From IMG/VR virus record IMGVR_UViG_3300021957_004854, positions 1 to 20,832 of that record: DNA of 20,832 nucleotides, one strand, 5' to 3'. The position numbers and the translations under genes are program-made. Below, one piece after another: positions 2,374 to 18,685 of this stretch. The notes beneath the pieces were generated by a model. That model saw only the letters and a program-made list of their open reading frames with translations, was not told where the DNA came from and searched no databases. Position 1 is the stretch's first letter, and each line of letters begins with the position of its first letter. The stretch is from a virus.

Positions 2374-2633
2374 TGGAAAATATTGCACAACTTATTTCTG
2401 ATTATGGATTTCCAATCGTAATGATGGTTGGACTTGGATACTTTGTATACTATATTTGGTGGTTTGTAGGTGAAGAATTAGAACCCGAAATTGAAAAACA
2501 ACACTTTGCATTGATTAAAGTGATTGACCAAGTAAGAATGCTAGACCAAGACTTGATTAGACTTCAACAAAAAGTTGATGTTGTTCTTGAGTATAAAGAA
2601 AATGAAAAGAAGAAGAGTGCTAAAAATGACTGA
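2373..2633 (+). CDS. Small membrane protein, second of a tandem pair, 86 aa
   Basis: The GTG start at 2373 shares its G with the preceding TAG stop, giving tight translational coupling. It has the same layout as the gene before it: N-terminus 'MENIAQLISDYGFPIVMMVG' leading into a membrane span (about residues 11-32, including 'LGYFVYYIWWFVG'), then a charged amphipathic helix with 'FALIKVIDQVRMLDQDL' and 'LQQKVDVVLEYKENEKKKS'. The shared 'LIS(E/D)(V/Y)G.PI' opening hints that the pair arose by duplication. A holin-like or pore-accessory role is possible; the location directly before CsgF suggests a link to the curli block. The stop overlaps the start of CsgF. Confidence 0.7.
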   Translation: MENIAQLISDYGFPIVMMVGLGYFVYYIWWFVGEELEPEIEKQHFALIKVIDQVRMLDQDLIRLQQKVDVVLEYKENEKKKSAKND

Positions 2634-3165
2634 AAAAGATTTAGAATTATTAAAGAAACAAATGGGGCCAAGAATTTGGGATGGATGGGCCTTATTTTAT
2701 TCTTTTTTATTTGGATGTCTAATTACAGTTATGTTAATGGCTCCTGCAGTATTATTTGCAGATGAAATAGTTCACAAATTTAAGAGTCCTTCCTTCAGTG
2801 GAATAGGACAATCATCACACTATCTTACAATTGAGAACCAAGAGAAATCAAGACGTGACAAGATAGCACAAGACATAGAAGATAGAATTGCAAAAGCAGA
2901 AAGGGAAGCAGAAAACACCACCCTTGCAAAATTTTTAAGAAATGTCGAAAGTAGAATTTATGCTCAGATAGCAAAACAGTTAGTAGAAAATATGTTCTCT
3001 AATGGTGAAGCTGCAGACTATGGTGTTTTCACAATAGAAGGGAATACAGTCACATACGAAAAATTGGTTGGAGAAGATGGTGCAGAATTTATTAGATTAA
3101 CAATTGTATCACAAGACGGAACGACAACAACTTTAGACATACCAGTTGGAACAGGAAGTTTCTAA
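2626..3165 (+). CDS. csgF: CsgF-like curli assembly factor
   Basis: CsgF in bacteria binds inside the CsgG pore and helps surface nucleation of curlin. I start at ATG 2626, overlapping the previous stop (179 aa); an upstream TTG/ATG at 2575 would only add an unlikely N-terminus. Residues 20-45 form a hydrophobic signal segment, with a likely cleavage after 'VLFA' (A45). The mature start 'DEIVHKFKSPSFSG' parallels E. coli CsgF 'TMTFQFRNPNFGG', the part that plugs CsgG. The C-terminal half ('LAKFLRNVESRIYAQIAKQL', then 'YGVFTIEGNTVTYEK' and 'LTIVSQDGTTTTLDIPV') matches the CsgF helix plus beta-sheet pattern. Odd features: an unusually long charged N-region before the signal and an extra charged helix (about residues 72-97). 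It directly precedes CsgG with no gap. Confidence 0.85.
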   Translation: MTEKDLELLKKQMGPRIWDGWALFYSFLFGCLITVMLMAPAVLFADEIVHKFKSPSFSGIGQSSHYLTIENQEKSRRDKIAQDIEDRIAKAEREAENTTLAKFLRNVESRIYAQIAKQLVENMFSNGEAADYGVFTIEGNTVTYEKLVGEDGAEFIRLTIVSQDGTTTTLDIPVGTGSF

Positions 3166-4050
3166 ATGAAGAATTTTTTATCAGTGGGACTTGCAGTCTT
3201 ACTCGCCAGTAGTTGTGCAAGTGTTCCTACTATGAACAGGGATTCTAGTAATTGTGACCCAAGTATTGTAGATGTTAAGACTCTTGTTGAAAAGGCAATA
3301 CCATTTACTTGTGTTGAAGATGCAGAGGTTGTGAAGATACCAACCTATCAAGAACTTGCAGACTTACCACCTGCTGAAACAATGCCTATTGTTGCAGTGT
3401 ATTCTTATATAGATAAGACAGGACAAAGGAAGAGAATGGACGGAGTTGCATCATTCTCAACTGCAGTCACCCAAGGTGCAGAATCATTTTTGATTGATGC
3501 ATTGAAGACTGCTGGAAATGGTAAATGGTTTAGAGTAGTAGAGAGAACAAATTTAGATGCACTTGTAAGAGAGAGACAAATCATACGAAGTGCAAGAGAA
3601 GACTTTGCAAATCAAGAAGGTAATGAAGATTCTCCAACAGGAATCCAACCTCTCTTATTTGCTGGTATCCTACTTGATGGTGGGATAATTGGTTATGACA
3701 CTAACATTGAAAGTGGTGGACGAGGTGCAAGAACACTTGGTGTAGGAACATCACGTTCATATAGAAGAGATATAGTGACTGTAAGTTTAAGAGGAATCTC
3801 AACACTTACAGGTGAAATTTTACTTAATGTGCAGACTACCAAGACAATATTGTCAGTTGGTGGTGGTTATGATGTGTTCAAGTTTGTGGATATGGATACA
3901 CAACTTGTTGAAATAGAAGATGGTGTAGCAGAGAATGAAGGAGTCACAAAAGCGACTCGTTCTGCAATCGAACTTGCTGTCTTAGAATTAATATACCAAG
4001 GACACGATAGAGGTTTTTGGGAAATAAAGGAAAAAACAAATGAAGAATAA
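3166..4050 (+). CDS. csgG: CsgG-like outer-membrane curli secretion pore (lipoprotein)
   Basis: CsgG forms a nonameric lipoprotein channel in the outer membrane that exports curli subunits. The 294-residue product has a lipoprotein signal with lipobox 'ASSC' (C17). The CsgG core runs from about residue 60: 'TYQELADLPPAETMPIVAVY', 'DKTGQRKRMDGVASFSTAV', 'GKWFRVVERTNLDALVRERQ', 'IIGYDTNIESGGRGARTLGV', 'DIVTVSLRGISTLTGEILL' and 'RSAIELAVLELIYQG', all closely like bacterial CsgG. F97 aligns with the constriction Phe56 of E. coli CsgG; the position of constriction Tyr51 falls in 'RMDG' and lacks an obvious Tyr. A linker of about 40 residues with two extra cysteines (C30, C49) separates the lipid-anchored Cys from the core. 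It abuts CsgF and overlaps curlin 1 by 11 bases. Confidence 0.95.
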   Translation: MKNFLSVGLAVLLASSCASVPTMNRDSSNCDPSIVDVKTLVEKAIPFTCVEDAEVVKIPTYQELADLPPAETMPIVAVYSYIDKTGQRKRMDGVASFSTAVTQGAESFLIDALKTAGNGKWFRVVERTNLDALVRERQIIRSAREDFANQEGNEDSPTGIQPLLFAGILLDGGIIGYDTNIESGGRGARTLGVGTSRSYRRDIVTVSLRGISTLTGEILLNVQTTKTILSVGGGYDVFKFVDMDTQLVEIEDGVAENEGVTKATRSAIELAVLELIYQGHDRGFWEIKEKTNEE

Positions 4051-4768
4051 ACTTCTTTTATTATGTTTATCATTAGGATTAAGTGGATTCGTATCTGCAG
4101 CTGCAGATGATAACGAAATTTTTATACAACAGTCAGGTGACAATTTAACTTTAGACATAACTCAAAAAGGTTATGCAAACAAAATTGGTGGAGATGATTT
4201 CTCAAGTTCATCGATTGATATGATTTTGACTGGTGCCACCAATAGTTTAACACTATTACAGGACGGAGACTCAAATAAATTATATGGCCCATTCATTGCA
4301 GATAATGCTACAGTAGATTTAACTTTTACTGGTGATTCAAACTCAATGGACTGGAATGTAGGATATGTTGGTAGTGCTGATTACTTAAATATGTTAGGAA
4401 CAATAGATGGTTCATCAAACACATTCGACATTGATATCGGATATGATGCATCTGCAGAATATCTTAACTGGGACTTAGACTTAGATGGTTCATCAAATGT
4501 ATTCACTACTAAAATAGATAGTGACAATGCAGTTTGGAACTGGACTGTTAATGGTTCATCAAATGATATCAATACAATCCAAGCAGATGCATCTGATAAC
4601 AAAATCACTGCAGTTCTAACTGGTTCAACAAACGACATCGACATCGTTCAGAAGAGTGGTTCAGATGCTGGTTGTCCAAGTGGTTCATTGTGTAGTGGTA
4701 TTATTGATGTATCTTTTGTGACTTCTAATGCAGATATTGACATCGTTCAGCAAGACTCTAACGATTAA
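4040..4768 (+). CDS. Curlin-like secreted amyloid repeat protein 1
   Basis: This is a probable curli subunit exported through CsgG. The 242-residue product has a signal peptide (about residues 1-20, 'MKNKLLLLCLSLGLSGFVSA'). The mature start 'DDNEIFIQQSGDNLTLDITQ' carries the curlin pattern I-x-Q-x-G-x-x-N with a repeat of 'Q.G'. The body consists of Asn/Asp/Ser/Thr-rich beta-strand repeats, with 'GSSN' or 'GSTN' turns at residues 124, 150, 172 and 195 and final strands 'NDIDIVQK' and 'ADIDIVQQ'. A C-x5-C pair (C212, C218) lies near the C-terminus; canonical CsgA and CsgB are not known for this. Whether it is the major (CsgA-like) or nucleator (CsgB-like) subunit cannot be decided. It overlaps CsgG by 11 bases and FecR by 41 bases. 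Confidence 0.82.
   Translation: MKNKLLLLCLSLGLSGFVSAAADDNEIFIQQSGDNLTLDITQKGYANKIGGDDFSSSSIDMILTGATNSLTLLQDGDSNKLYGPFIADNATVDLTFTGDSNSMDWNVGYVGSADYLNMLGTIDGSSNTFDIDIGYDASAEYLNWDLDLDGSSNVFTTKIDSDNAVWNWTVNGSSNDINTIQADASDNKITAVLTGSTNDIDIVQKSGSDAGCPSGSLCSGIIDVSFVTSNADIDIVQQDSND
4407..4563 (+). repeat. Coding direct repeats in curlin 1
   Basis: The 13-base unit ATGGTTCATCAAA occurs exactly at 4407-4419, 4484-4496 and 4551-4563, in the same frame each time, encoding the D/N-G-S-S-N turn. A diverged fourth copy (TGGTTCAACAAA) is at 4621-4632. The spacing of 77 and 67 bases is not constant, so this is degenerate protein-repeat periodicity rather than a fresh tandem DNA duplication. It marks the beta-solenoid-like repeats of the curlin. 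Confidence 0.75.
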
Positions 4769-5864
4769 TCTTTTACTTATTGGTTCACTTTCAGGTGAAC
4801 CGATAGGTGAGATTGTAGAATATAGGGGTTCAGCAGGACTTCAGAGAGACGGAGAGTCTACTCTTGTCAGTGCAAGTAGTGAACCCGAAGTCTTAATGTA
4901 TGATACAGCAAAGACTCAAAATGGTAGAATGAAGATTGAGTTCTTAGGAGACGAGGAACTAGATTTAACAGAACATACCAAGGTTTGGATTGACGAGGTA
5001 TATTACGACCCCGACCCTTCCAAATCCAAAATGGCTATACGAATGGCACAAGGCACTGCTCGATTTGCTTCGGGTTTCGGTGGTAAGATAAAGAAAAGTA
5101 ATATTAAAGTGTCGACCCCTACAGCACAAATTGCTGTGGTTGGAACAGATTTCACTACCACTATTGATGAAATCGGAAGGTCACTTGTTATACTTTTGCC
5201 TGATGAATTTGGTAATCCTTCAGGGAAGATTATTGTGAGTAATGCTGGTGGAAGTGTGACACTAGAAGAAGCATACCAAGCAACTATGGTATCTTCTTTT
5301 GACGATTCACCTACTAAACCAGTGACAGTGTCAGGAATAGATGCAAGTATGATTGACAATATGTTTATTGTGAATCCACCCGAAGAGGTGCAAGACCAAG
5401 TTGAAGAAGAATCCAATGGTGGTGAAAATGATAGCAATAACATTCTAGATGTGGACTTTTTAGAGTTCAATGATTTAGAAGAGGATTACTTTGAAGACGA
5501 TGAGTTGGAATATACAGAACTCGACAGAGACTTATTAGATGTCGATTTCTTACAAGATTTACTAGATGTAGTTTTAGAGATTGACCGAAAGGTTGGTATC
5601 GATGCAGAAAGAAAGGCAGACCCTTTCGGAGTTGCAAGAATAGAAGGAACTGCATTTGGGTTTGACAAAGACACTCAATACAATACAATTGTTGACAAGG
5701 GTCTTGGTCAAATTTGGTTCTACAGAGAAGTTCAAGGGATTATCTCCATTAAACTTCCAATCTATGCACAAGCAACGATTAGAACTGAAACAGACGAAAA
5801 AGGTTCACTAATTAAAGTGGGTGATGGTTCGTCTATAAATATTACCATTACACAAACAAACTAG
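4728..5864 (+). CDS. Secreted FecR-domain protein
   Basis: The 378-residue protein begins with a signal-like segment (residues 1-23, 'LTINLLLIGSLSGEP'). The FecR domain covers about residues 28-180: 'GEIVEYRGSAGLQRDGE', 'DTAKTQNGRMKIEFLGDEEL', 'TKVWIDEVYYDP', 'MAQGTARFASG', and the diagnostic 'STPTAQIAVVGTDFTTT' (residues 129-145). An acidic segment (about residues 220-285) with repeats of 'LLDVDFL' follows, then a C-terminal beta-rich domain. Classical FecR is an inner-membrane anti-sigma regulator; here there is only a secreted or periplasmic FecR domain, as in stand-alone FecR proteins. Start ATG 4728 lies inside the curlin 1 gene in another frame; no later ATG precedes the signal. In bacteria FecR proteins are often encoded with CHASE2 cyclases, and one is present downstream. 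Confidence 0.85.
   Translation: MQILTSFSKTLTINLLLIGSLSGEPIGEIVEYRGSAGLQRDGESTLVSASSEPEVLMYDTAKTQNGRMKIEFLGDEELDLTEHTKVWIDEVYYDPDPSKSKMAIRMAQGTARFASGFGGKIKKSNIKVSTPTAQIAVVGTDFTTTIDEIGRSLVILLPDEFGNPSGKIIVSNAGGSVTLEEAYQATMVSSFDDSPTKPVTVSGIDASMIDNMFIVNPPEEVQDQVEEESNGGENDSNNILDVDFLEFNDLEEDYFEDDELEYTELDRDLLDVDFLQDLLDVVLEIDRKVGIDAERKADPFGVARIEGTAFGFDKDTQYNTIVDKGLGQIWFYREVQGIISIKLPIYAQATIRTETDEKGSLIKVGDGSSINITITQTN
4782..4801 (+). promoter_or_regulatory. Hairpin just after the curlin 1 stop codon
   Basis: GGTTCAC (4782-4788) and GTGAACC (4795-4801) form a perfect 7-bp stem with a 6-base loop, 13 bases after the curlin 1 stop and inside the FecR coding sequence. There is no T-run, so it is not a typical terminator. 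It could attenuate or protect the upstream curlin mRNA, giving more curlin than FecR. It encodes part of the signal peptide, so it may also be fortuitous. Confidence 0.35.
5834..5841 (+). promoter_or_regulatory. T4-type late promoter element (candidate)
   Basis: An exact TATAAATA, the T4 late-promoter -10 sequence, lies 33 bases before the ATG at 5874. A start point about six bases downstream would give a short leader carrying the AGGAG site at 5865-5869. It could drive the 49-residue membrane gene, curlin 2 and IscU late in infection. The 8-mer is expected a few times by chance in AT-rich DNA of this length, and it lies within the 3' end of the FecR coding sequence. Confidence 0.4.
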
Positions 5865-5873
5865 GAGAATTAT

Positions 5874-6023
5874 ATGAATAGTATGTTAGAAAAACTTCGT
5901 GATTGGCATGAATATCAGTTAACTGGATTTCAAGATGCAATGAGACTAGATAATTACCATATGTTATGGTTATCATTTAGTAAAGGAGTAGTATTTACAT
6001 TATTATTTTTATGGTTATTATAG
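5874..6023 (+). CDS. Small membrane protein, 49 aa
   Basis: An ATG with a strong ribosome-binding site (AGGAG 5865-5869, overlapping the FecR stop) opens a 49-residue ORF. The N-terminal ~30 residues are soluble (MNSMLEKLRDWHEYQLTGFQ) and the last ~18 are a hydrophobic span ('SFSKGVVFTLLFLWLL'). It looks like a tail-anchored single-span inner-membrane protein. No family is recognised. It is placed between FecR and curlin 2, in a run of genes concerned with the envelope. Confidence 0.65.
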   Translation: MNSMLEKLRDWHEYQLTGFQDAMRLDNYHMLWLSFSKGVVFTLLFLWLL

Positions 6024-6028
6024 ATTAA

Positions 6029-6748
6029 ATGAAAGATACCACACAGTATATTGCAGTTTTATTTTTACTTTCCCTAATCGGACTGGGATGGACTAGTGTG
6101 GCATCTGCTAATGATAATGAAATTTCTATCAAACAAACTGGTGGAAATAACCTTGCACTGATTATAGAGCAAATAGGAAATAACAACGAAATTAAAATGT
6201 ATGATAACTATTCGTATTTAAATGGTGCAAATATGTCATTACATTTATATCAAAACAATGATGGAACAAATCAAAACACAATAGACCTTTGGCACTTAGA
6301 TGGAGCAAGTAATTCTATCCGTTGGGGTCAAGGTGGAAAATTAGATAATGCATCTGATACAACTTTCTATTATGATGGAACTGAAAGTGGTGGTCATTAT
6401 GCAAACTTAGACATACACGGAAGTAATAATAATGTTGCAGGTTGGCAGGCAAATTCAGGTAATGGTGGACACACATATAATCAGTTAATCTTTAGTAGTT
6501 ATAATGATGTGTATGTAGAACAACGAGGCGATGGTGCAAAGACTCTTAACTTAACAATTAGTAATAACGATAATGATGTTCAAGTGGTTCAAAAGAATAC
6601 TGGACACACAGCAACAATTAACTTGTCAGGTAGTTATGGAACTACATTAAATCTTTTACAACAAGGATATACATCACAGTCATATTCACTTTCTCAGAAT
6701 TGTCAAACGACTACAGGTTGTTCAGTATCAGTCACACAAGGTCAATAA
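6029..6748 (+). CDS. Curlin-like secreted amyloid repeat protein 2
   Basis: The 239-residue protein has a signal peptide (residues 1-27, ending 'SVASA') and a mature start 'NDNEISIKQTGGNNLALIIE' that closely parallels curlin 1 ('DDNEIFIQQSGDNLTLDITQ'), with the same I-x-Q-x-G-x-N curlin pattern. The body is Asn/Gly/Gln-rich: 'EQIGNNNEIKM', 'LDGASNSIRWGQGG', 'IHGSNNNVAGWQANSG', 'NDVYVEQRGDGAKTLNL', 'NDNDVQVVQKNTGHTATINL', 'LNLLQQGYTSQ'. Many repeat units end in a 'V.Q' strand. As in curlin 1, a C-x5-C pair (C225, C231) is near the C-terminus. Having two different curlins fits a CsgA/CsgB-like major and nucleator pair; which is which is not decidable. It ends one base before IscU. Confidence 0.82.
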   Translation: MKDTTQYIAVLFLLSLIGLGWTSVASANDNEISIKQTGGNNLALIIEQIGNNNEIKMYDNYSYLNGANMSLHLYQNNDGTNQNTIDLWHLDGASNSIRWGQGGKLDNASDTTFYYDGTESGGHYANLDIHGSNNNVAGWQANSGNGGHTYNQLIFSSYNDVYVEQRGDGAKTLNLTISNNDNDVQVVQKNTGHTATINLSGSYGTTLNLLQQGYTSQSYSLSQNCQTTTGCSVSVTQGQ

Positions 6749-6749
6749 T

Positions 6750-7145
6750 ATGGCATATTCACAAAAAGTAATAGATAGATTCGAGGGTGTTCTTAATGCA
6801 CCCGAACAATTCTCAGTTGGTAGATTCGACCCCAACGACCCTAATGTTGCAACAGGAATGGCAGGAGCTCCTGCTTGTGGTGATGTAATGAAACTGCAAC
6901 TTAAGTTAGACGAAAACGAAATGATAGTAGATGTAAAGTTTAAGACCTATGGTTGTGGAAGTGCAATTGCATCCAGTTCAATGTTTGTAGATTTACTCAA
7001 AGGGAAAACTATGGAAGAAGCAAAACTTATTAAAGATAAAGATATTGCAGAAGCACTAGAACTTCCACCAATCAAATTACACTGTAGTGTTCTTGCAGAA
7101 GACTCAATCAGAAAAGCAATAGAGGACTGGGAAAGTAATGGATAA
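6750..7145 (+). CDS. iscU: IscU-type Fe-S cluster scaffold protein
   Basis: IscU is the scaffold on which Fe-S clusters are assembled before transfer to target proteins. The 131-residue product is near full length and strikingly like bacterial IscU: 'MAYSQKVIDRFEG', 'GMAGAPACGDVMKLQLKL', 'VKFKTYGCGSAIASSSMFV', 'DIAEALELPPIKLHCSVLAE'. All key residues are present: C43, C69 and C112, the ligand-modulating D45, and the HscA-binding type motif 'LPPIKLHC' (LPPVK in E. coli). There is no IscS, IscA or HscA in the window, so it would rely on host partners. It resembles a host-acquired auxiliary gene. Its close placement after curlin 2 suggests co-transcription; a functional tie to curli is not evident. 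Confidence 0.95.
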   Translation: MAYSQKVIDRFEGVLNAPEQFSVGRFDPNDPNVATGMAGAPACGDVMKLQLKLDENEMIVDVKFKTYGCGSAIASSSMFVDLLKGKTMEEAKLIKDKDIAEALELPPIKLHCSVLAEDSIRKAIEDWESNG

Positions 7146-7287
7146 GAGAGTAGTAGAACTAGTAAACGAATATCGTATTAAAAGAAGACAAAAAATGTGG
7201 TCAGGAATTTGGTCTGCATTTCTCGGACTTTCATTAATAGGTGTTTGTCTCTATATATTCTTCTTTGCTTGGCCGACAGTTGTATAG
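7138..7287 (+). CDS. Small basic membrane protein, 49 aa
   Basis: The ATG at 7138 overlaps the last codons of IscU by eight bases. The first 20 residues are positively charged (MDKRVVELVNEYRIKRRQKM), followed by a hydrophobic segment of about 27 residues (positions 21-49) including 'FLGLSLIGVCLYIFFFAW'. This is a single-span inner-membrane protein with the charged end probably in the cytoplasm. No family recognised. Its 3' end overlaps the possible start region of the cyclase in another frame, which suggests translational coupling. Confidence 0.6.
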   Translation: MDKRVVELVNEYRIKRRQKMWSGIWSAFLGLSLIGVCLYIFFFAWPTVV

Positions 7288-9118
7288 CTGGAAAACAGTC
7301 CTCATCACCATTGGTGTATTTGTAGGACTTAAAATTTGGTCTCCATATCTAGTAGAAAATATTAAGTGGTCTTACTTTGATGTTCTTCATCAGAGTCAGG
7401 AAACAGTTCAGGTTGATGACATCGTCTTAGTAGACATAGACGAGAAGTCACTTGAAGTGTTTGGTCAGTATCCTATTAAACGTAGTATCTATAGGGATAT
7501 CCTGCTTGACACTCATTACACTAACACACATGTTTTCACTCAACTCTTCAATCAACCTGATAGAAATTCAGGAGAAGATGAAATCTTTGCAGAAGGATTA
7601 GTTAATAGATTAACCATTCTTGCATCAGCACCTACCATACAAAAGGACACTGGTTCTGCACCCTTCGTAGGAAACTCTACCTTTGGGGGTGGAAAGGCAA
7701 CAGACCACTTATGGAACTTCTCAGGAATCTCAAGTCCTATCAGGATACTTCAGGACAATACTTACGGAGTTGGGGTCACTGTTGCAACACCTAGTGTTAA
7801 TGGAACACCAAATTTTGATGGAACGACAAGGTCTATCCCTTTAATCATAACTGCAAACGAACAGGTATATCCGTCACTTGCACTAGAAACACTTCGTGCA
7901 TTTAAAGACCAACCTTCGTATCAGACTAGAATTACAGAAGTCGGAGTAGAGTGGGTTAGAATGGGTAGAGACAAACCTATCACTACCACTGCAACCAGTG
8001 ATGTTATGGTATCCTATTGGAATGAGTTCCAACGGGTTTCTGCTGTTGACTTACCTAATCTAAATCTTACTAATAAAATTCTGATATGGGGTTTGACTGC
8101 AGAGGGATTAAATAATCCAGTTTCAACTCCAGTGGGTGTATTGTATCCTCACGAAGTGCAAGCGAACCATATCCAAACCGTCTTGTCAGGAGTTCAAATA
8201 CAACAATCCTACTATCTTGAATTACTTGAGATTGTTCTTCTGTTGACAGTTCTTGTAATGATATTGGTGATGGTTTACAAACTTCCCACAATTCTTTCGG
8301 GGATAATGAGTCTAACACTTGTAGGACTTCAGGTGGGTGGGAGTTATTATATTTGGACTTCAAGTCTCGTTCTTTTCGATACCTTCTTTTCATCAATTGC
8401 CTCCTTGATTGTTTTTGGTCATGCCTCTTTCAATCAATACTATACAACCTACAAACTCAAAGAAGAAATTAAGAAGCAGTTCCAAAAGTATTTATCTCCC
8501 GACATGGTTGACCAACTTGCAGAGAATCCCGATTTACTTAAACTAGGTGGAGATAGAAAAGAACTTACATTCATGTTCATGGACATATGTGGATTCACAC
8601 CTATATCAGAACACTATATGAAACAGGACGACCCCGAAGGATTGGTAGAACTTATCAATAGATTCCTCGACATGCAGACCAAGATAATCCTAAATAATAA
8701 TGGAACTATCGACAAGTATATGGGCGACTGTATTATGAGTTTTTGGAATGCACCTTTAGATTGTCCCGACCATGCCGAGATGGCAGTAAAGTCTGCAATA
8801 GAAATTTTAGAAGCAACAAAGGAACTCAATGAAGAACTCAAACCGCTTAATCTTCCACCCATTAACGTGGGTATTGGGATTAATACTGGTGAGTGCATCG
8901 TTGGAAATATGGGGTCAGAACTTAGATTTGACTATTCCGTCATTGGAGATGCAGTCAACCTCGGTGCTAGACTTGAGGGACAAACAAGAAATTATGATGG
9001 GGTTGACGTGTTGTTGGGACAAGAAACATATCGACAGTGTCCAAACAGAGTATTCACTAGAGTCGACTCTATTACAGTTAAAGGAAAATCAGAACCAGTC
9101 GTGGTTTACACTATCTGA
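7241..9118 (+). CDS. CHASE2-domain class III adenylate cyclase
   Basis: This predicted membrane-bound cyclase makes a cyclic nucleotide, probably cAMP, in response to an envelope signal. Residues are numbered from GTG 7241. Order: TM1 (about 18-34); an extracytoplasmic CHASE2 sensor (about 45-320, with 'DDIVLVDIDEKSLEVFGQYP' and 'RSIYRDILLD'); three TM segments (about 326-397); then a cyclase domain (about 435-625). Catalytic residues are complete: metal-binding D448 ('FMDICGF') and D496 ('YMGDCIM'), adenine-type K492, S566 at the position usually Thr/Asp, and N573 and R577 ('AVNLGARLEG'). The Lys/Ser pair favours ATP over GTP. The start is uncertain: GTG 7241, TTG 7265 or TTG 7280; there is no suitable ATG. 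FecR and CHASE2 cyclase genes are commonly neighbours in bacteria. Confidence 0.92.
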   Translation: MFVSIYSSLLGRQLYSWKTVLITIGVFVGLKIWSPYLVENIKWSYFDVLHQSQETVQVDDIVLVDIDEKSLEVFGQYPIKRSIYRDILLDTHYTNTHVFTQLFNQPDRNSGEDEIFAEGLVNRLTILASAPTIQKDTGSAPFVGNSTFGGGKATDHLWNFSGISSPIRILQDNTYGVGVTVATPSVNGTPNFDGTTRSIPLIITANEQVYPSLALETLRAFKDQPSYQTRITEVGVEWVRMGRDKPITTTATSDVMVSYWNEFQRVSAVDLPNLNLTNKILIWGLTAEGLNNPVSTPVGVLYPHEVQANHIQTVLSGVQIQQSYYLELLEIVLLLTVLVMILVMVYKLPTILSGIMSLTLVGLQVGGSYYIWTSSLVLFDTFFSSIASLIVFGHASFNQYYTTYKLKEEIKKQFQKYLSPDMVDQLAENPDLLKLGGDRKELTFMFMDICGFTPISEHYMKQDDPEGLVELINRFLDMQTKIILNNNGTIDKYMGDCIMSFWNAPLDCPDHAEMAVKSAIEILEATKELNEELKPLNLPPINVGIGINTGECIVGNMGSELRFDYSVIGDAVNLGARLEGQTRNYDGVDVLLGQETYRQCPNRVFTRVDSITVKGKSEPVVVYTI

Positions 9119-10096: not shown

Positions 10097-10110
10097 GGGT
10101 GTATCTTTTT
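10074..10110 (+). terminator. Terminator-like hairpin overlapping the peroxiredoxin promoter
   Basis: The stem runs from GATACACCTAT (10074-10084) to ATGGGTGTATC (10095-10105) with one G-U pair and a 10-base loop, followed by five T (10106-10110). It is a plausible intrinsic terminator for hsp20, 16 bases after its stop. The stem also spans the -10 of the next promoter, so the element could act as an operator or stop read-through while allowing re-initiation. Confidence 0.6.
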
Positions 10111-10128
10111 ATATATTATGGAGAAAAA

Positions 10129-10650
10129 ATGGAAGAAGTACATATGGGTTTGCCTCTAGTTGAGGGACAAGAAGTACCTAACGTAAACTTAACAATAAGA
10201 GTTGATGGTGAGTTCGTTCAACTAAACACAAAAGAACAATTTGCAAATAAAAGAGTAATACTGTTTGCATTGCCTGGCGCATTCACACCAACATGTTCAA
10301 CACAACAATTGCCTGGCTTTGAAGAAAAGTTTGCAGAGTTCCAAGAAAAAGGAATTGATGAGATATATTGTATATCTGTAAATGATTCATTCGTAATGAA
10401 CGCATGGTTTGAATCACAAAACATTACTAATGTTTTCCCACTTCCCGATGGAAATGGAGAGTTCACTCACAAAATTGGTGCAGAATGTAAAAAGTCAAAC
10501 TTAGGATTTGGATACAGGTCTTGGAGATATGCATTAGTGATTAATGATGGCAAAGTAGAAAAAATGTTCATAGAAGAAGGTTTTGGTGATAATGTCGAAT
10601 CCGACCCATATGAAGTTTCCACACCCGAGAATGTGCTAAATACATTGTAA
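10129..10650 (+). CDS. Peroxiredoxin (Prx5/AhpC-TSA type)
   Basis: Peroxiredoxins reduce H2O2 and organic peroxides using a reactive cysteine. The 173-residue product (ATG 10129, ribosome-binding site GGAG 10119-10122) has the hallmark 'PGAFTPTCS' with peroxidatic C56 and T53, 'FALPGAF', and the arginine-bearing 'YRSWRYALVIND' (R133). Further cysteines C81 and C120 could act as resolving residues. Full length fits the Prx5 (PRX-type II) family; no fused glutaredoxin is present, so it would need a host reductant. Start 10129 is preferred over in-frame ATG 10144 because of the ribosome-binding site spacing. It overlaps the methyltransferase start by one base. Confidence 0.93.
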   Translation: MEEVHMGLPLVEGQEVPNVNLTIRVDGEFVQLNTKEQFANKRVILFALPGAFTPTCSTQQLPGFEEKFAEFQEKGIDEIYCISVNDSFVMNAWFESQNITNVFPLPDGNGEFTHKIGAECKKSNLGFGYRSWRYALVINDGKVEKMFIEEGFGDNVESDPYEVSTPENVLNTL

Positions 10651-11891
10651 TGAACGAATATTTCAGATATACTCTTAAAGACTTAGAAGAAAACTCTGCA
10701 CAAAAGAAGTTTAATTATATAACTTTCTTTGCTGGTGGTGGAGGTTCTTCTTGTGCTTATAAACTTGAAGGTGGAGACTGTAGATATATGAATGAGTTTC
10801 AACAACTACATGTTGATACTTACCTTCAAAACTTTCCCAATACAATTCATGAATGCAAAGACATTAAAGAAGTCACTGGAAAGGGTATTATGGAACTTAG
10901 TGGACTCGAAGTTGGAGAAATTGATATTTTAGATGCAAGTCCTCCTTGTCCACCATTCTCTATGGCAGGTTCTAAACGTGAAGGTTGGAACAAAGAAAAG
11001 ATTGCATATGGAATGAAACAAACTAACATTGAAGATTTGACTTGGGAAGTAATTAGAATTACTGGAGAACTAAAACCTAAAGTTGTTATATGTGAAAACG
11101 TAAAGGGTCTTACAATGGATTATGCAAAAGACCATCTAATCAGAATGATTCAAGACTTTGAAGCAGAAGGATATTCTGCAGTGTATAAGGTTATGAAAGG
11201 ACAGGAACATGGAGTCCCACAAAAAAGAGAAAGAACATTTATACTTGCAGTTCGTAATGATGTTTTAGATAAAATAGGAATGCCATGGATGGTATTAGGA
11301 AGTGTATTTCCCGAACCATCTGAAAAGGAATGGACTGTAAGAGATGCAATTGAAGATTTACAAGATGATGAAGAGAATATAGTAGATGCAACTTACTTAG
11401 AAGAAGCAATGAGAACATCTTCTAAATCCCATTGGGTTTTTGGATTTGAAACTCATCCCGACTTTCCAAACTCTGGCCCGTGTTTAGGAATGAGAGGAAT
11501 CAATGACAGAGATAGAGTGATAAGTATTGGGGATGATATTGTTGGCCCATGGTTTAAAACACAAATCAAAAATGGAATCATAGACCCCGAAGATGAAAAA
11601 CACTCTTATTACATGTCAAGAATAGTTCCGTGGAATCAAGCAGCACATTCTTTAACCGAACAAGGATGTCAACCAAAATTTATGGGTGGTAATCATTTCC
11701 ATCCAAGTGGAGAAAGAATATATACTCCAAAGGAATTACAAAGAATTATGACTTTACCCGATGATTATAAATCAACAGGAGACTATAATGATAAAGGTGC
11801 AAGAATAGGATTAATGGTTGCACCTCTATGCTTAAGAACACTTGTAGAAAGTGTCAATACAAACATATTGGAGAAGTACAATGTCGATTAG
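10650..11891 (+). CDS. DNA (cytosine-5) methyltransferase
   Basis: The enzyme transfers a methyl group from SAM to carbon 5 of cytosine in DNA. The 413-residue product shows the family motifs in order: motif I 'FFAGGGGSS' (residues 26-34), motif IV with catalytic C100 ('ASPPCPPFS', usually PPCQ), motif VI 'ENV' (149-151), motif VIII 'QKRER' (191-195), a variable target-recognition region (about 210-340) and motif X 'GLMVAPLCLRTLVESV' near the end. The start TAATG shares its A with the peroxiredoxin stop. It overlaps the TET/JBP-like dioxygenase by 11 bases. No restriction endonuclease is nearby, so it is more likely part of phage DNA modification than a restriction system. Target sequence unknown. 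Confidence 0.93.
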   Translation: MNEYFRYTLKDLEENSAQKKFNYITFFAGGGGSSCAYKLEGGDCRYMNEFQQLHVDTYLQNFPNTIHECKDIKEVTGKGIMELSGLEVGEIDILDASPPCPPFSMAGSKREGWNKEKIAYGMKQTNIEDLTWEVIRITGELKPKVVICENVKGLTMDYAKDHLIRMIQDFEAEGYSAVYKVMKGQEHGVPQKRERTFILAVRNDVLDKIGMPWMVLGSVFPEPSEKEWTVRDAIEDLQDDEENIVDATYLEEAMRTSSKSHWVFGFETHPDFPNSGPCLGMRGINDRDRVISIGDDIVGPWFKTQIKNGIIDPEDEKHSYYMSRIVPWNQAAHSLTEQGCQPKFMGGNHFHPSGERIYTPKELQRIMTLPDDYKSTGDYNDKGARIGLMVAPLCLRTLVESVNTNILEKYNVD

Positions 11892-12894
11892 AACACACAC
11901 CCCAAAGGTAGACCATGGTTTTGCATGGACTAAAGAAAAATACAATGGTCAGTGGTTAGATGGAAGTGAGATTACTGATTTAGTTTCTACTGTAGGAACA
12001 ACAGATGAACTAACTAAGATTTATAAACCAGTATCAACCCTTGGAGAAGAACCACCATTACTAGCATGTATTGTTAAAGGTGTTTACACTGGTGAGAAAC
12101 TAGAAGAACTCAGAAAGACAGTTCAATCTATTGAAGAAGTATCTACACTTCGTGCAAATGCAGCTGGCCCCATTGACCATGAGGAAATGAAAAAGAAAGG
12201 ATTGATTGAAGGAGTTCATTATAAAATGAGAACACCAAATTCATACTATCCTATAAAGAAAAATGGTCAGTTCAATCGTATTGCAGAAGCAAATCCTATT
12301 CATTCTATTTTTATGGGACATAAGAGAGGAAGATTTACAGGAATGATTGGACTTAGTGGTTGGTCTAAACTTGCAAGAAACAGAGAAAAATGGGAAAGTA
12401 TGCAGGATATAGCATTACTAAATGAGATTGCATTAAAGAAAGGTGCGCCAGAGGTATGGAGAAAACAAAGAGAATTTTGTGATGAATGTGTTGACCCAAA
12501 ATATACATTAAAGGGAGCCCCGTTCACTTCTATATCTGCAAACAAATATTCTTATGTTGAAGGTGCAGGAAAAATGTCTGCACATGTTGATGGTGATGAT
12601 TTAGATTTTGGTATGACGACCATGTGTGTATTCCGTTGCGGAGATTACAAAGGTGCATACCTATCATTCCCAAGATATGGTATAGGAATTGATGCTGACG
12701 ATGGTGATGTAATTATTGCAGACTCAAATGAAATACATGGAGTGACACAAATAGAAGGAACAGGTGTTAGACATACTTGTGTTGCATATTGTGGAAGTGA
12801 TGTTGCAACAAAAGGTGTAAGAGGTAAAACAGAGAATCCTATTGGCCATCATCATAGAGACAAACATGGTAGTTTAGATACTTTCTTAAGTTAA
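11881..12894 (+). CDS. TET/JBP-type 2-oxoglutarate Fe(II) dioxygenase (probable 5mC oxidase)
   Basis: TET/JBP enzymes oxidise the 5-methyl group of cytosine or thymine in DNA using iron and 2-oxoglutarate. The 337-residue product (from ATG 11881) carries the double-stranded beta-helix core in the last third: iron ligands H235-x-D237 ('MSAHVDGDDLDFGM'), 'GDYKGAYLSFPRYGIGIDA', 'DDGDVIIADSNEIHGV' with distal ligand H286, and R297 ('GTGVRHTCVAY') for 2-oxoglutarate. This pattern (GG.L.FP..G....GDV...H, then R) is closest to the TET/JBP family in my recall. The first ~200 residues are unrecognised. Translation is coupled to the methyltransferase (overlap 11881-11891, ribosome-binding site GGAG 11870-11873). 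Other 2OG oxygenases, such as prolyl hydroxylase-like enzymes, are an alternative. Confidence 0.78.
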   Translation: MSIRTHTPKVDHGFAWTKEKYNGQWLDGSEITDLVSTVGTTDELTKIYKPVSTLGEEPPLLACIVKGVYTGEKLEELRKTVQSIEEVSTLRANAAGPIDHEEMKKKGLIEGVHYKMRTPNSYYPIKKNGQFNRIAEANPIHSIFMGHKRGRFTGMIGLSGWSKLARNREKWESMQDIALLNEIALKKGAPEVWRKQREFCDECVDPKYTLKGAPFTSISANKYSYVEGAGKMSAHVDGDDLDFGMTTMCVFRCGDYKGAYLSFPRYGIGIDADDGDVIIADSNEIHGVTQIEGTGVRHTCVAYCGSDVATKGVRGKTENPIGHHHRDKHGSLDTFLS

Positions 12895-14141: not shown

Positions 14142-14368
14142 GCAGAGAAACATTATTAAGAGCATTACAATCACAATATCAAGGTCAAATGGATATTGCA
14201 ATGGCAAACATTAAAGTATACCAAGGCAACCCTGCAGGTATTGGAGAACATCCCGATGTTGCAGAAGCACTTGACACTCAAGTAGAAAAGTATGCAAACG
14301 CAAAAGAAAAATACGAAGCAGTTGCAGAAATTTTAAATCAAAAAGCCCAAACTACATTGACAGAATAG
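14138..14368 (+). CDS. Hypothetical protein of T4-like phages, 76 aa
   Basis: The predicted helical protein starts 'MSRETLLRALQSQYQGQMDI', contains 'VYQGNPAGIGEHPDVAEALD' in the middle and ends with a long charged helix. The 'GIGEHPD' type loop is shared, as I recall, with small proteins encoded before gp43 in marine T4-like phages. Function unknown. The last codons carry the -35 box of the gp43 promoter. Confidence 0.65.
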   Translation: MSRETLLRALQSQYQGQMDIAMANIKVYQGNPAGIGEHPDVAEALDTQVEKYANAKEKYEAVAEILNQKAQTTLTE

Positions 14369-14385
14369 TATCCTTATAGTATAAT
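14357..14385 (+). promoter_or_regulatory. Perfect-consensus promoter for gp43, predicted leaderless
   Basis: TTGACA (14357-14362) and TATAAT (14380-14385) match sigma70 consensus at all 12 positions with an optimal 17-base spacing. The -10 ends seven bases before the gp43 ATG (14392), so the transcript would begin at about the A of the ATG. ATAGTA (14376-14381) and TACTAT (14386-14391) are perfect inverted arms around TAAT. No Shine-Dalgarno sequence precedes the ATG. Confidence 0.85.
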
Positions 14386-17638: not shown

Positions 17639-18685
17639 ATGTCAAATATTAAAATAATTCTAGGCAATTCCTTTGACCTAGATTCATATAAGGAACCATT
17701 CGGTTCCAAATACTTTAAAGAAAAATATCCACAATGTAACTTTTTAGGTTATGGTTGGAGAAATTTATCAAAAGATGACCCTACTAAAGATGACGATTCA
17801 AATGCAGGCGTGAGAGCAAAAGGAACTCCAACTGCACATGATTCTTTAGGTCAGTCTTTTCAAATTAATGGTTGGAAAGGAGAATACCGTCCACCCATTG
17901 AAGATGAAAATGGAAACCTCAAAGATGGTAGAACTCGTAGAAACGAGTTAATCTATCTTGGTGAAACATGGATGCCAGTTGCAAGACTTAAGTTCAAAGC
18001 TGCAGAAAAACCAAACACCCAAGAAAGAGCTTCTATGATAGGAATGAATAATCATGACTTTCATACAAGATACGAAATGTTAGATTTTGTTTCAGCTGTT
18101 GGAAGAGATATTCAAGATGGTGAATGTCAATTAGATGAAGATTCAATTAGAACTCATTTGATTGAGGAATATGATATTGAACAATATTTCCACATGACAA
18201 GTGGTGGGATAGTTCAAAAAATCATTAATCTAGTATTGAAATATGCAGAAGGTGGTGACGGTAATACTCCAGTGACAAGAGACGTTGTTACTGATTGGGT
18301 GCAAAATTGTAAGGGAGATATTAACAAACATCAAATCCCTTCCTCAGTTGCAATTCTAAAAACTGGTGGTCAAAGAGACGAACAGTTAATTATGAGGTGG
18401 GTTCTTCCACAATCACCTAAGAAGCCTGAGGTAATATTATACCCAAGTGGTTTATTTGCAGATGACGCTAGGAAAAGTGTTCTTGATTTCATCAGTGATG
18501 TCAAACAACATTACAAGAATGTATTCAAATGTGTAAGTGGAGCAATTGACCATCTAAATGTCAAAGCACCTACTGAGGATTGTTTCGATTTGATTGGTAT
18601 TGTTCCAACACTTGAAACAGAATATCAAAAAAGGGCTTGGGAAGAAAACAGATTATTAACTTTAAAAGAATTCTTAGAAAATTAA
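17639..18685 (+). CDS. Unrecognised 348-residue protein with ParB-like DGRxR segment
   Basis: It has its own strong promoter and a good ribosome-binding site, so it is well expressed. The N-terminal region has 'GQSFQINGWKGEYRPPI' and then 'DGRTRRNELIYLGETWMPV' (about residues 96-114), which is like the ParB/Srx-fold nuclease or partition domain signature (DG.tR...l..LG...PV). 'DFHTRYEMLDFVSAVGRDI' starts near residue 139, and 'EYDIEQYFHMTSGGIVQKI' follows. Toward the end is 'FDLIGIVPTLETEYQKRA'. There is no catalytic set I can name and no membrane segment. In T4-like phages this position, beside uvsX and gp43, often holds replication or host-shutoff proteins, but no function is claimed. Confidence 0.75.
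   Translation: MSNIKIILGNSFDLDSYKEPFGSKYFKEKYPQCNFLGYGWRNLSKDDPTKDDDSNAGVRAKGTPTAHDSLGQSFQINGWKGEYRPPIEDENGNLKDGRTRRNELIYLGETWMPVARLKFKAAEKPNTQERASMIGMNNHDFHTRYEMLDFVSAVGRDIQDGECQLDEDSIRTHLIEEYDIEQYFHMTSGGIVQKIINLVLKYAEGGDGNTPVTRDVVTDWVQNCKGDINKHQIPSSVAILKTGGQRDEQLIMRWVLPQSPKKPEVILYPSGLFADDARKSVLDFISDVKQHYKNVFKCVSGAIDHLNVKAPTEDCFDLIGIVPTLETEYQKRAWEENRLLTLKEFLEN

Follow-up and report, generated by a model that had tools for sequence, protein, structure and literature searches.

Organization of the methyltransferase/dioxygenase locus

The window, by which we mean the entire 20,832-nt stretch of viral DNA that was analyzed, carries a C5-cytosine methyltransferase (MTase) gene immediately followed by a TET/JBP-type dioxygenase (TET) gene, with both reading frames at the positions given by a first-pass annotation. 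The assignment of the adjacent pair is borne out by Pfam profiles, by the catalytic residues, and by its recurrence in relatives. The features discussed below are as follows.

10099..10650, + strand: peroxiredoxin (PF08534, 2.9e-30); its stop codon overlaps the MTase ATG (TAATG)
10650..11891, + strand: C5-cytosine DNA methyltransferase, 413 aa (PF00145, 1.6e-48; TIGR00675, 2.8e-39; SpCmoX 8YF3, 1.6e-64)
10938..10949, + strand: SPPC motif with the catalytic Cys100 (S97, P98, P99 and C100 invariant in relatives)
11811..11813, + strand: codon of Leu388, at the position that tells the cofactors apart (Arg350 in SpCmoX, Asn in canonical enzymes; alignments and PMC12783734)
11870..11873, + strand: Shine-Dalgarno-like GGAG ahead of the TET ATG at 11881 (from the sequence)
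11881..12894, + strand: TET/JBP 2OG-Fe(II) dioxygenase, 337 aa, modeled as one compact TET fold (PF12851, 4.8e-11; AlphaFold2; Foldseek)
12583..12600, + strand: H235-x-D237-x-x-D240, iron ligands plus an Asp spaced like NgTet1 Asp234 (invariant, 36 sequences)
12736..12771, + strand: H286 (iron) to R297 (2-oxoglutarate) (invariant, 36 sequences)
12895, + strand: tailoring slot directly 3' of TET, empty here; in relatives occupied by AGT, TAGT, GT8, epimerase or P-loop kinase genes
17639..18685, + strand: 348-aa ORF without an assigned family, a possible displaced tailoring gene (remote match to genes of loci L208 and L220)

The TET reading frame is open already from a GTG at 11851, but the ATG at 11881 is the likely start because GGAG lies 7 bases upstream of it and, in several relatives, the frame offers no start before it. 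With this start the MTase and TET genes overlap by 11 bases, as originally described, and the overlap together with the ribosome site suggests that their translation is coupled. Judged by its position, the peroxiredoxin gene would share a transcription unit with the MTase gene.

Other parts of the window contain several recognizable elements. A curli module (2575-9118) comprises CsgF (PF10614, 4.3e-11), CsgG (7.8e-47), FecR, two curlin-repeat proteins (one above the cut-off), and a protein with CHASE2 and nucleotide cyclase matches (7e-28 and 5.2e-17). The block is annotated likewise in pelagiphage HTVC008M and in Methylophilales phage Melnitz, and the Melnitz paper reports csgA and csgB to be missing from that phage (PMC9004378); the curlin-repeat proteins may be its fibre subunits. 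Within the same region, a gene for a NifU/IscU-like iron-sulphur scaffold (6750-7145; 5.3e-39) recurs in 9 of the compared loci, in varying places. Just upstream of the DNA polymerase gene (polB) there is a perfect match to a sigma-70-type promoter (TTGACA, 17, TATAAT; 14357-14385).

The dioxygenase has a TET fold

The search against Tet_JBP (PF12851) that had been suggested as a check matches the dioxygenase with 42.6 bits, above the curated Pfam cut-off of 34.9. The four catalytic residues named at the outset (H235, D237, H286 and R297) are all present and, like D240, are invariant in 36 relatives. Together, the HxDxxD motif, H286 and R297 reproduce the spacing of NgTet1, in which the HxD lies at residue 229, a placing similar to that in the window protein. 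The D234A substitution of NgTet1 serves as an inactive control mutant (PMC11404850).

A phmmer search of the PDB with the TET sequence gives no match. The AlphaFold2 model, built from the alignment of 36 relatives, is confident (pLDDT 89.4, pTM 0.87), its N-terminal half included, and places the HxD...H iron ligands and the 2-oxoglutarate-binding arginine in a TET-type double-stranded beta-helix. When the model is compared with the PDB by Foldseek, the top 26 matches are all TET2, NgTET1, CcTet or CMD1, and FTO comes next with a much weaker E-value; the best matches are thus 5mC oxidases of the TET family and not a 2OG oxygenase family acting on something other than nucleic acids, the outcome that had been named as contrary to the assignment. 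The N-terminal ~200 residues, which the first-pass annotation read as a possible DNA-binding or partner domain, are in the model part of the TET fold itself, so that the AlphaFold2 fold and the Foldseek matches rule out an extra domain. No relatives of this TET were found in the bacterial and archaeal genomes searched.

The methyltransferase and its cofactor position

The MTase has the hallmarks of PF00145 (PC, ENV and QxRxR motifs and a Rossmann cofactor domain), and its match to the TIGR00675 (dcm) profile is above the cut-off. The motif residues listed previously, C100 (in SPPC), E149-N150-V151 and Q191-K-R-E-R195, are all there; in an alignment of 13 relatives they are also invariant, except at K192 and E194. 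The nearest solved structure is SpCmoX, with M.HhaI next (2.9e-16). SpCmoX, from Synechococcus phage S-B43, moves a carboxymethyl group from Cx-SAM onto DNA and reads GC; its Arg350, equivalent to HhaI Asn304, holds the Cx-SAM carboxylate, and the R350N mutant is inactive with both cofactors (PMC12783734).

The position of Arg350 separates the enzymes cleanly. Leu is found there in 106 of 106 distinct TET-linked MTases and Arg in 63 of 63 CmoX-like MTases (with CmoA in the available sequence for 53 of these); canonical phage C5-MTases have Asn. The counts do not represent independent events, since each set of enzymes is a clade of its own. In the tree, the TET-linked and the CmoA-linked MTases are two supported groups (100/98) inside one larger clade, and we read the Leu/Arg split as one ancient difference rather than many events. 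A search that recovered CmoA in both positive controls gave no CmoA in the 20 TET records, and no CmoY-like ligase was found near TET-linked MTases. The window is a fragment, and one related locus (L203) does have a CmoA-like gene. Since Leu replaces Arg350 and CmoA is missing from the 20 records, the window MTase likely uses plain SAM, although this is not guaranteed, given that Leu is not the canonical Asn and that the R350N form of SpCmoX is dead with both cofactors.

The predicted target motif of the MTase would most likely be GpC. GC occurs at 0.88-0.89 of the codon-shuffled expectation in the window and in Melnitz versus 0.97-0.99 in two phages that lack the module, a comparison of two against two that is no more than suggestive. 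In dinucleotide ratios, GC and CG are both depleted and the values of control phages overlap. In the coding regions of the window, AGC stands at about half and TGC at 1.5 times the codon-shuffled expectation; the deviations are milder in phages without the module.

Genes behind the dioxygenase in related loci

We collected 136 distinct TET loci, with an MTase in view in 118 of them, and the overlapping MTase-TET pair is kept across many divergent loci. Directly behind TET there is a variable slot that in relatives usually holds one of two kinds of tailoring genes. The first kind comprises a T4-type DNA alpha-glucosyltransferase (AGT), the TET-associated glycosyltransferase (TAGT; PF20691) and a GT8-type transferase, along with cytidylyltransferases and a sugar epimerase. 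The AGT is full-length (PF11440, 1.7e-73; PDB 1Y6F, 4.4e-86) and about 38-41% identical to the AGTs of T4-type phages. The second kind is a P-loop kinase of 177 aa, in some loci accompanied by a larger protein of no assigned family. Among the 98 loci in which the slot is visible, a glycosyltransferase occurs alone in 31 and the kinase alone in 46, while 20 lack the two and a single locus combines them (Fisher 1e-10, ignoring kinship between loci). At the level of records the split is clean: 11 of 20 have the kinase, six have TAGT or AGT, and three, which make up the window's own lineage, have neither a kinase nor a glycosyltransferase.

The model of the slot kinase (pLDDT 92, pTM 0.88) matches generic NMP-type kinases with TM values of about 0.5, and Walker A and two Arg residues are conserved; its sequence has no credible match in the PDB (one at E 0.5). 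A single common family for all of the unassigned slot proteins was rejected, since hhalign mostly finds no relation and the only links that hold are those with members of c79, c24 and c35.

Most of the window's lineage has an empty slot, and L011 alone has a kinase there. The earlier statement that there is no glucosyltransferase in the window holds for all ORFs scanned, and its absence is a matter of a lineage-specific empty slot; further modification genes may lie beyond the 20.8-kb fragment. The ORF at 17639-18685 matches L208 ORF 8796, which is directly behind TET, with an hhalign probability of 98.7 (E 2e-16), and more weakly (21.5 bits) a gene in the same place in L220 (2565-3602). It is absent from L038, a 96% identical relative, and so is not a fixed component.

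A few loci are arranged differently. In L098, L100, L164, L167 and their relatives, polB lies between TET and the MTase, and a known tailoring gene is not in view. In L203 (1473-3905 and 6539-7350), genes for TAGT, TET and a CmoA-like protein (TIGR00740, 129 bits, below the cut-off) are consecutive, the CmoA-like gene being immediately 3' of TET; the MTase follows polB, and the sequence ends before the diagnostic cofactor residue. A mixed TET and carboxy-SAM chemistry is possible at this locus. A 332-aa ParB-like protein occupies the TET slot in L071 (7365-8363) and is encoded near uvsX in L039 (16932-17930); ParB-domain genes near CmoX are also reported by the CmoX study (PMC12783734).

Source of 5hmC and proposed pathway

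In phage T4, a thymidylate-synthase-fold enzyme makes hmdCMP before incorporation, and AGT acts on the resulting 5hmC. The thymidylate-synthase/dCMP-hydroxymethylase fold (PF00303) was found in none of 20 related records, among them the complete Melnitz genome and two records of about 146 kb, and was detected in nine control genomes. The T4-type route is therefore ruled out for these phages, as the first reading had anticipated, and 5hmC cannot reach their DNA from the nucleotide pool in that way. Those that carry AGT or TAGT need another source of 5hmC, and the adjoining TET gene is the evident candidate. No other argument for 5hmC as the product is as strong; it is drawn from the relatives and extended to the window.

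We consider it quite probable that the MTase-TET pair is a post-replicative cytosine modification module that converts C to 5mC and then to 5hmC. Sequence, fold, neighborhood and family comparisons all favor this two-step path as first proposed; the accompanying N-terminal domain is the part that did not stand. According to this scheme, the SAM-dependent MTase would write 5mC at a short motif in phage DNA, and TET would oxidize it, mainly to 5hmC, using iron, oxygen and 2-oxoglutarate. The hydroxyl would then be glycosylated or probably phosphorylated in relatives. For the window's lineage, in which the slot is mostly empty, plain 5hmC is probably the end product, unless a distant gene such as that at 17639-18685 acts on it. 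The modification would most likely serve as a defense against nucleases of the host.

The fate of 5hmC in the kinase-bearing relatives, including Melnitz, is more tentative. In phage DNA, the hydroxymethyl group of 5hmU is known to be phosphorylated by a 5hmU DNA kinase (PMC7653180), and by analogy the slot kinase could phosphorylate TET-made 5hmC in DNA as the cytosine counterpart of that route, with the unassigned slot proteins c24, c35 and c79 building further on the product and glycosylation and phosphorylation being alternative fates. We regard this as a conceivable but rather doubtful extension of the pathway.

Other readings of the same genes differ in what is written or in where the oxidation stops. 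TET might proceed past 5hmC to 5fC or 5caC, which would be stored or coupled to amines by ATP-grasp ligases; over-oxidation is known for eukaryotic TETs, and RimK-like genes are present near the module in Melnitz (upstream of polB) and in several loci. These RimK genes, however, stand before polB rather than in the slot, and their substrates may be proteins; the AGT, TAGT and kinase neighbors need a hydroxyl, and oxidation past 5hmC is not described for phage TETs (PMC11404850), all of which makes this outcome very improbable. Slightly harder to sustain is a CmoX-type MTase that writes 5-carboxymethylcytosine, with the dioxygenase hydroxylating that product. The closeness to SpCmoX, the SPPC motif common to both enzymes, their shared larger clade and the CmoA-like gene of L203 would fit such a chemistry, but the diagnostic residue (Leu388, not the carboxylate-binding Arg), the CmoA and CmoY searches and the two groups in the tree speak against it, as does the hydroxymethyl acceptor required by AGT, and we consider it very improbable.

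The most remote of these readings would have the dioxygenase act on thymine, as JBP does, or on host DNA, with the MTase an independent anti-restriction methylase. TET and JBP belong to a single family, phages often carry orphan methylases, and the Melnitz MTase (gene 5) has been interpreted simply as an anti-restriction methylase (PMC9004378). Against this stand the conservation of the overlapping pair in so many divergent loci and the 5hmC-type glucosyltransferases directly behind it, which leave it a very slim chance.

Relation to known systems

The MTase-TET module that we favor as a source of 5hmC resembles several described systems, each with characteristic differences. Its sequence relative SpCmoX of S-B43 (8YF3) is the closest solved MTase and has a demonstrated GC target (PMC12783734), but the window enzyme has Leu in place of Arg350 and is partnered by TET instead of CmoA and CmoY. 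Genes 5 and 6 of Melnitz (MZ577097) are an overlapping pair beside polB, 56.5% and 47.9% identical to the window MTase and TET, respectively; Melnitz differs in that its TET gene is followed by a 427-aa gene and the P-loop kinase. Cultured Melnitz phages thus carry the pair too, with gene 6 annotated as hypothetical. As in the T4 pathway (gp42, AGT and BGT), 5hmC would be the sugar acceptor, but here the modification would be made in DNA rather than before incorporation.

Phage TETs acting on Gp5mC and paired with GpC C5-MTases were reportedly characterized by Burke et al. in 2021 (PNAS; cited in PMC11404850), and the present module, which had been proposed as a candidate of that class and has the same pairing, is a further case. 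In those systems a TET/JBP protein and a C5-MTase are likewise reported to be neighbors on viral contigs, in clusters that include tailoring genes, whereas the window belongs to a lineage of T4-like marine myoviruses in which the slot is empty, and has relatives with AGT or a P-loop kinase. A literature search, which did not extend to the 2021 study, turned up no mention of the Leu/Arg split, AGT genes following TET, or the alternation of sugar and kinase genes, and we do not claim priority for them.

The analysis would place TET-made 5hmC in marine T4-like phages, including the cultured Melnitz, where the annotation gives the pair as a hypothetical protein and a plain methylase. The 5hmC glucosyltransferase known from T4 seems also to serve phages with a quite different route to 5hmC. 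The Arg/Leu residue provides a one-position aid for separating TET-linked from carboxymethyl-transferring MTases, and the kinase-or-sugar slot hints at new modified bases. With the same pair present in a cultured phage, Melnitz, the module is directly testable.
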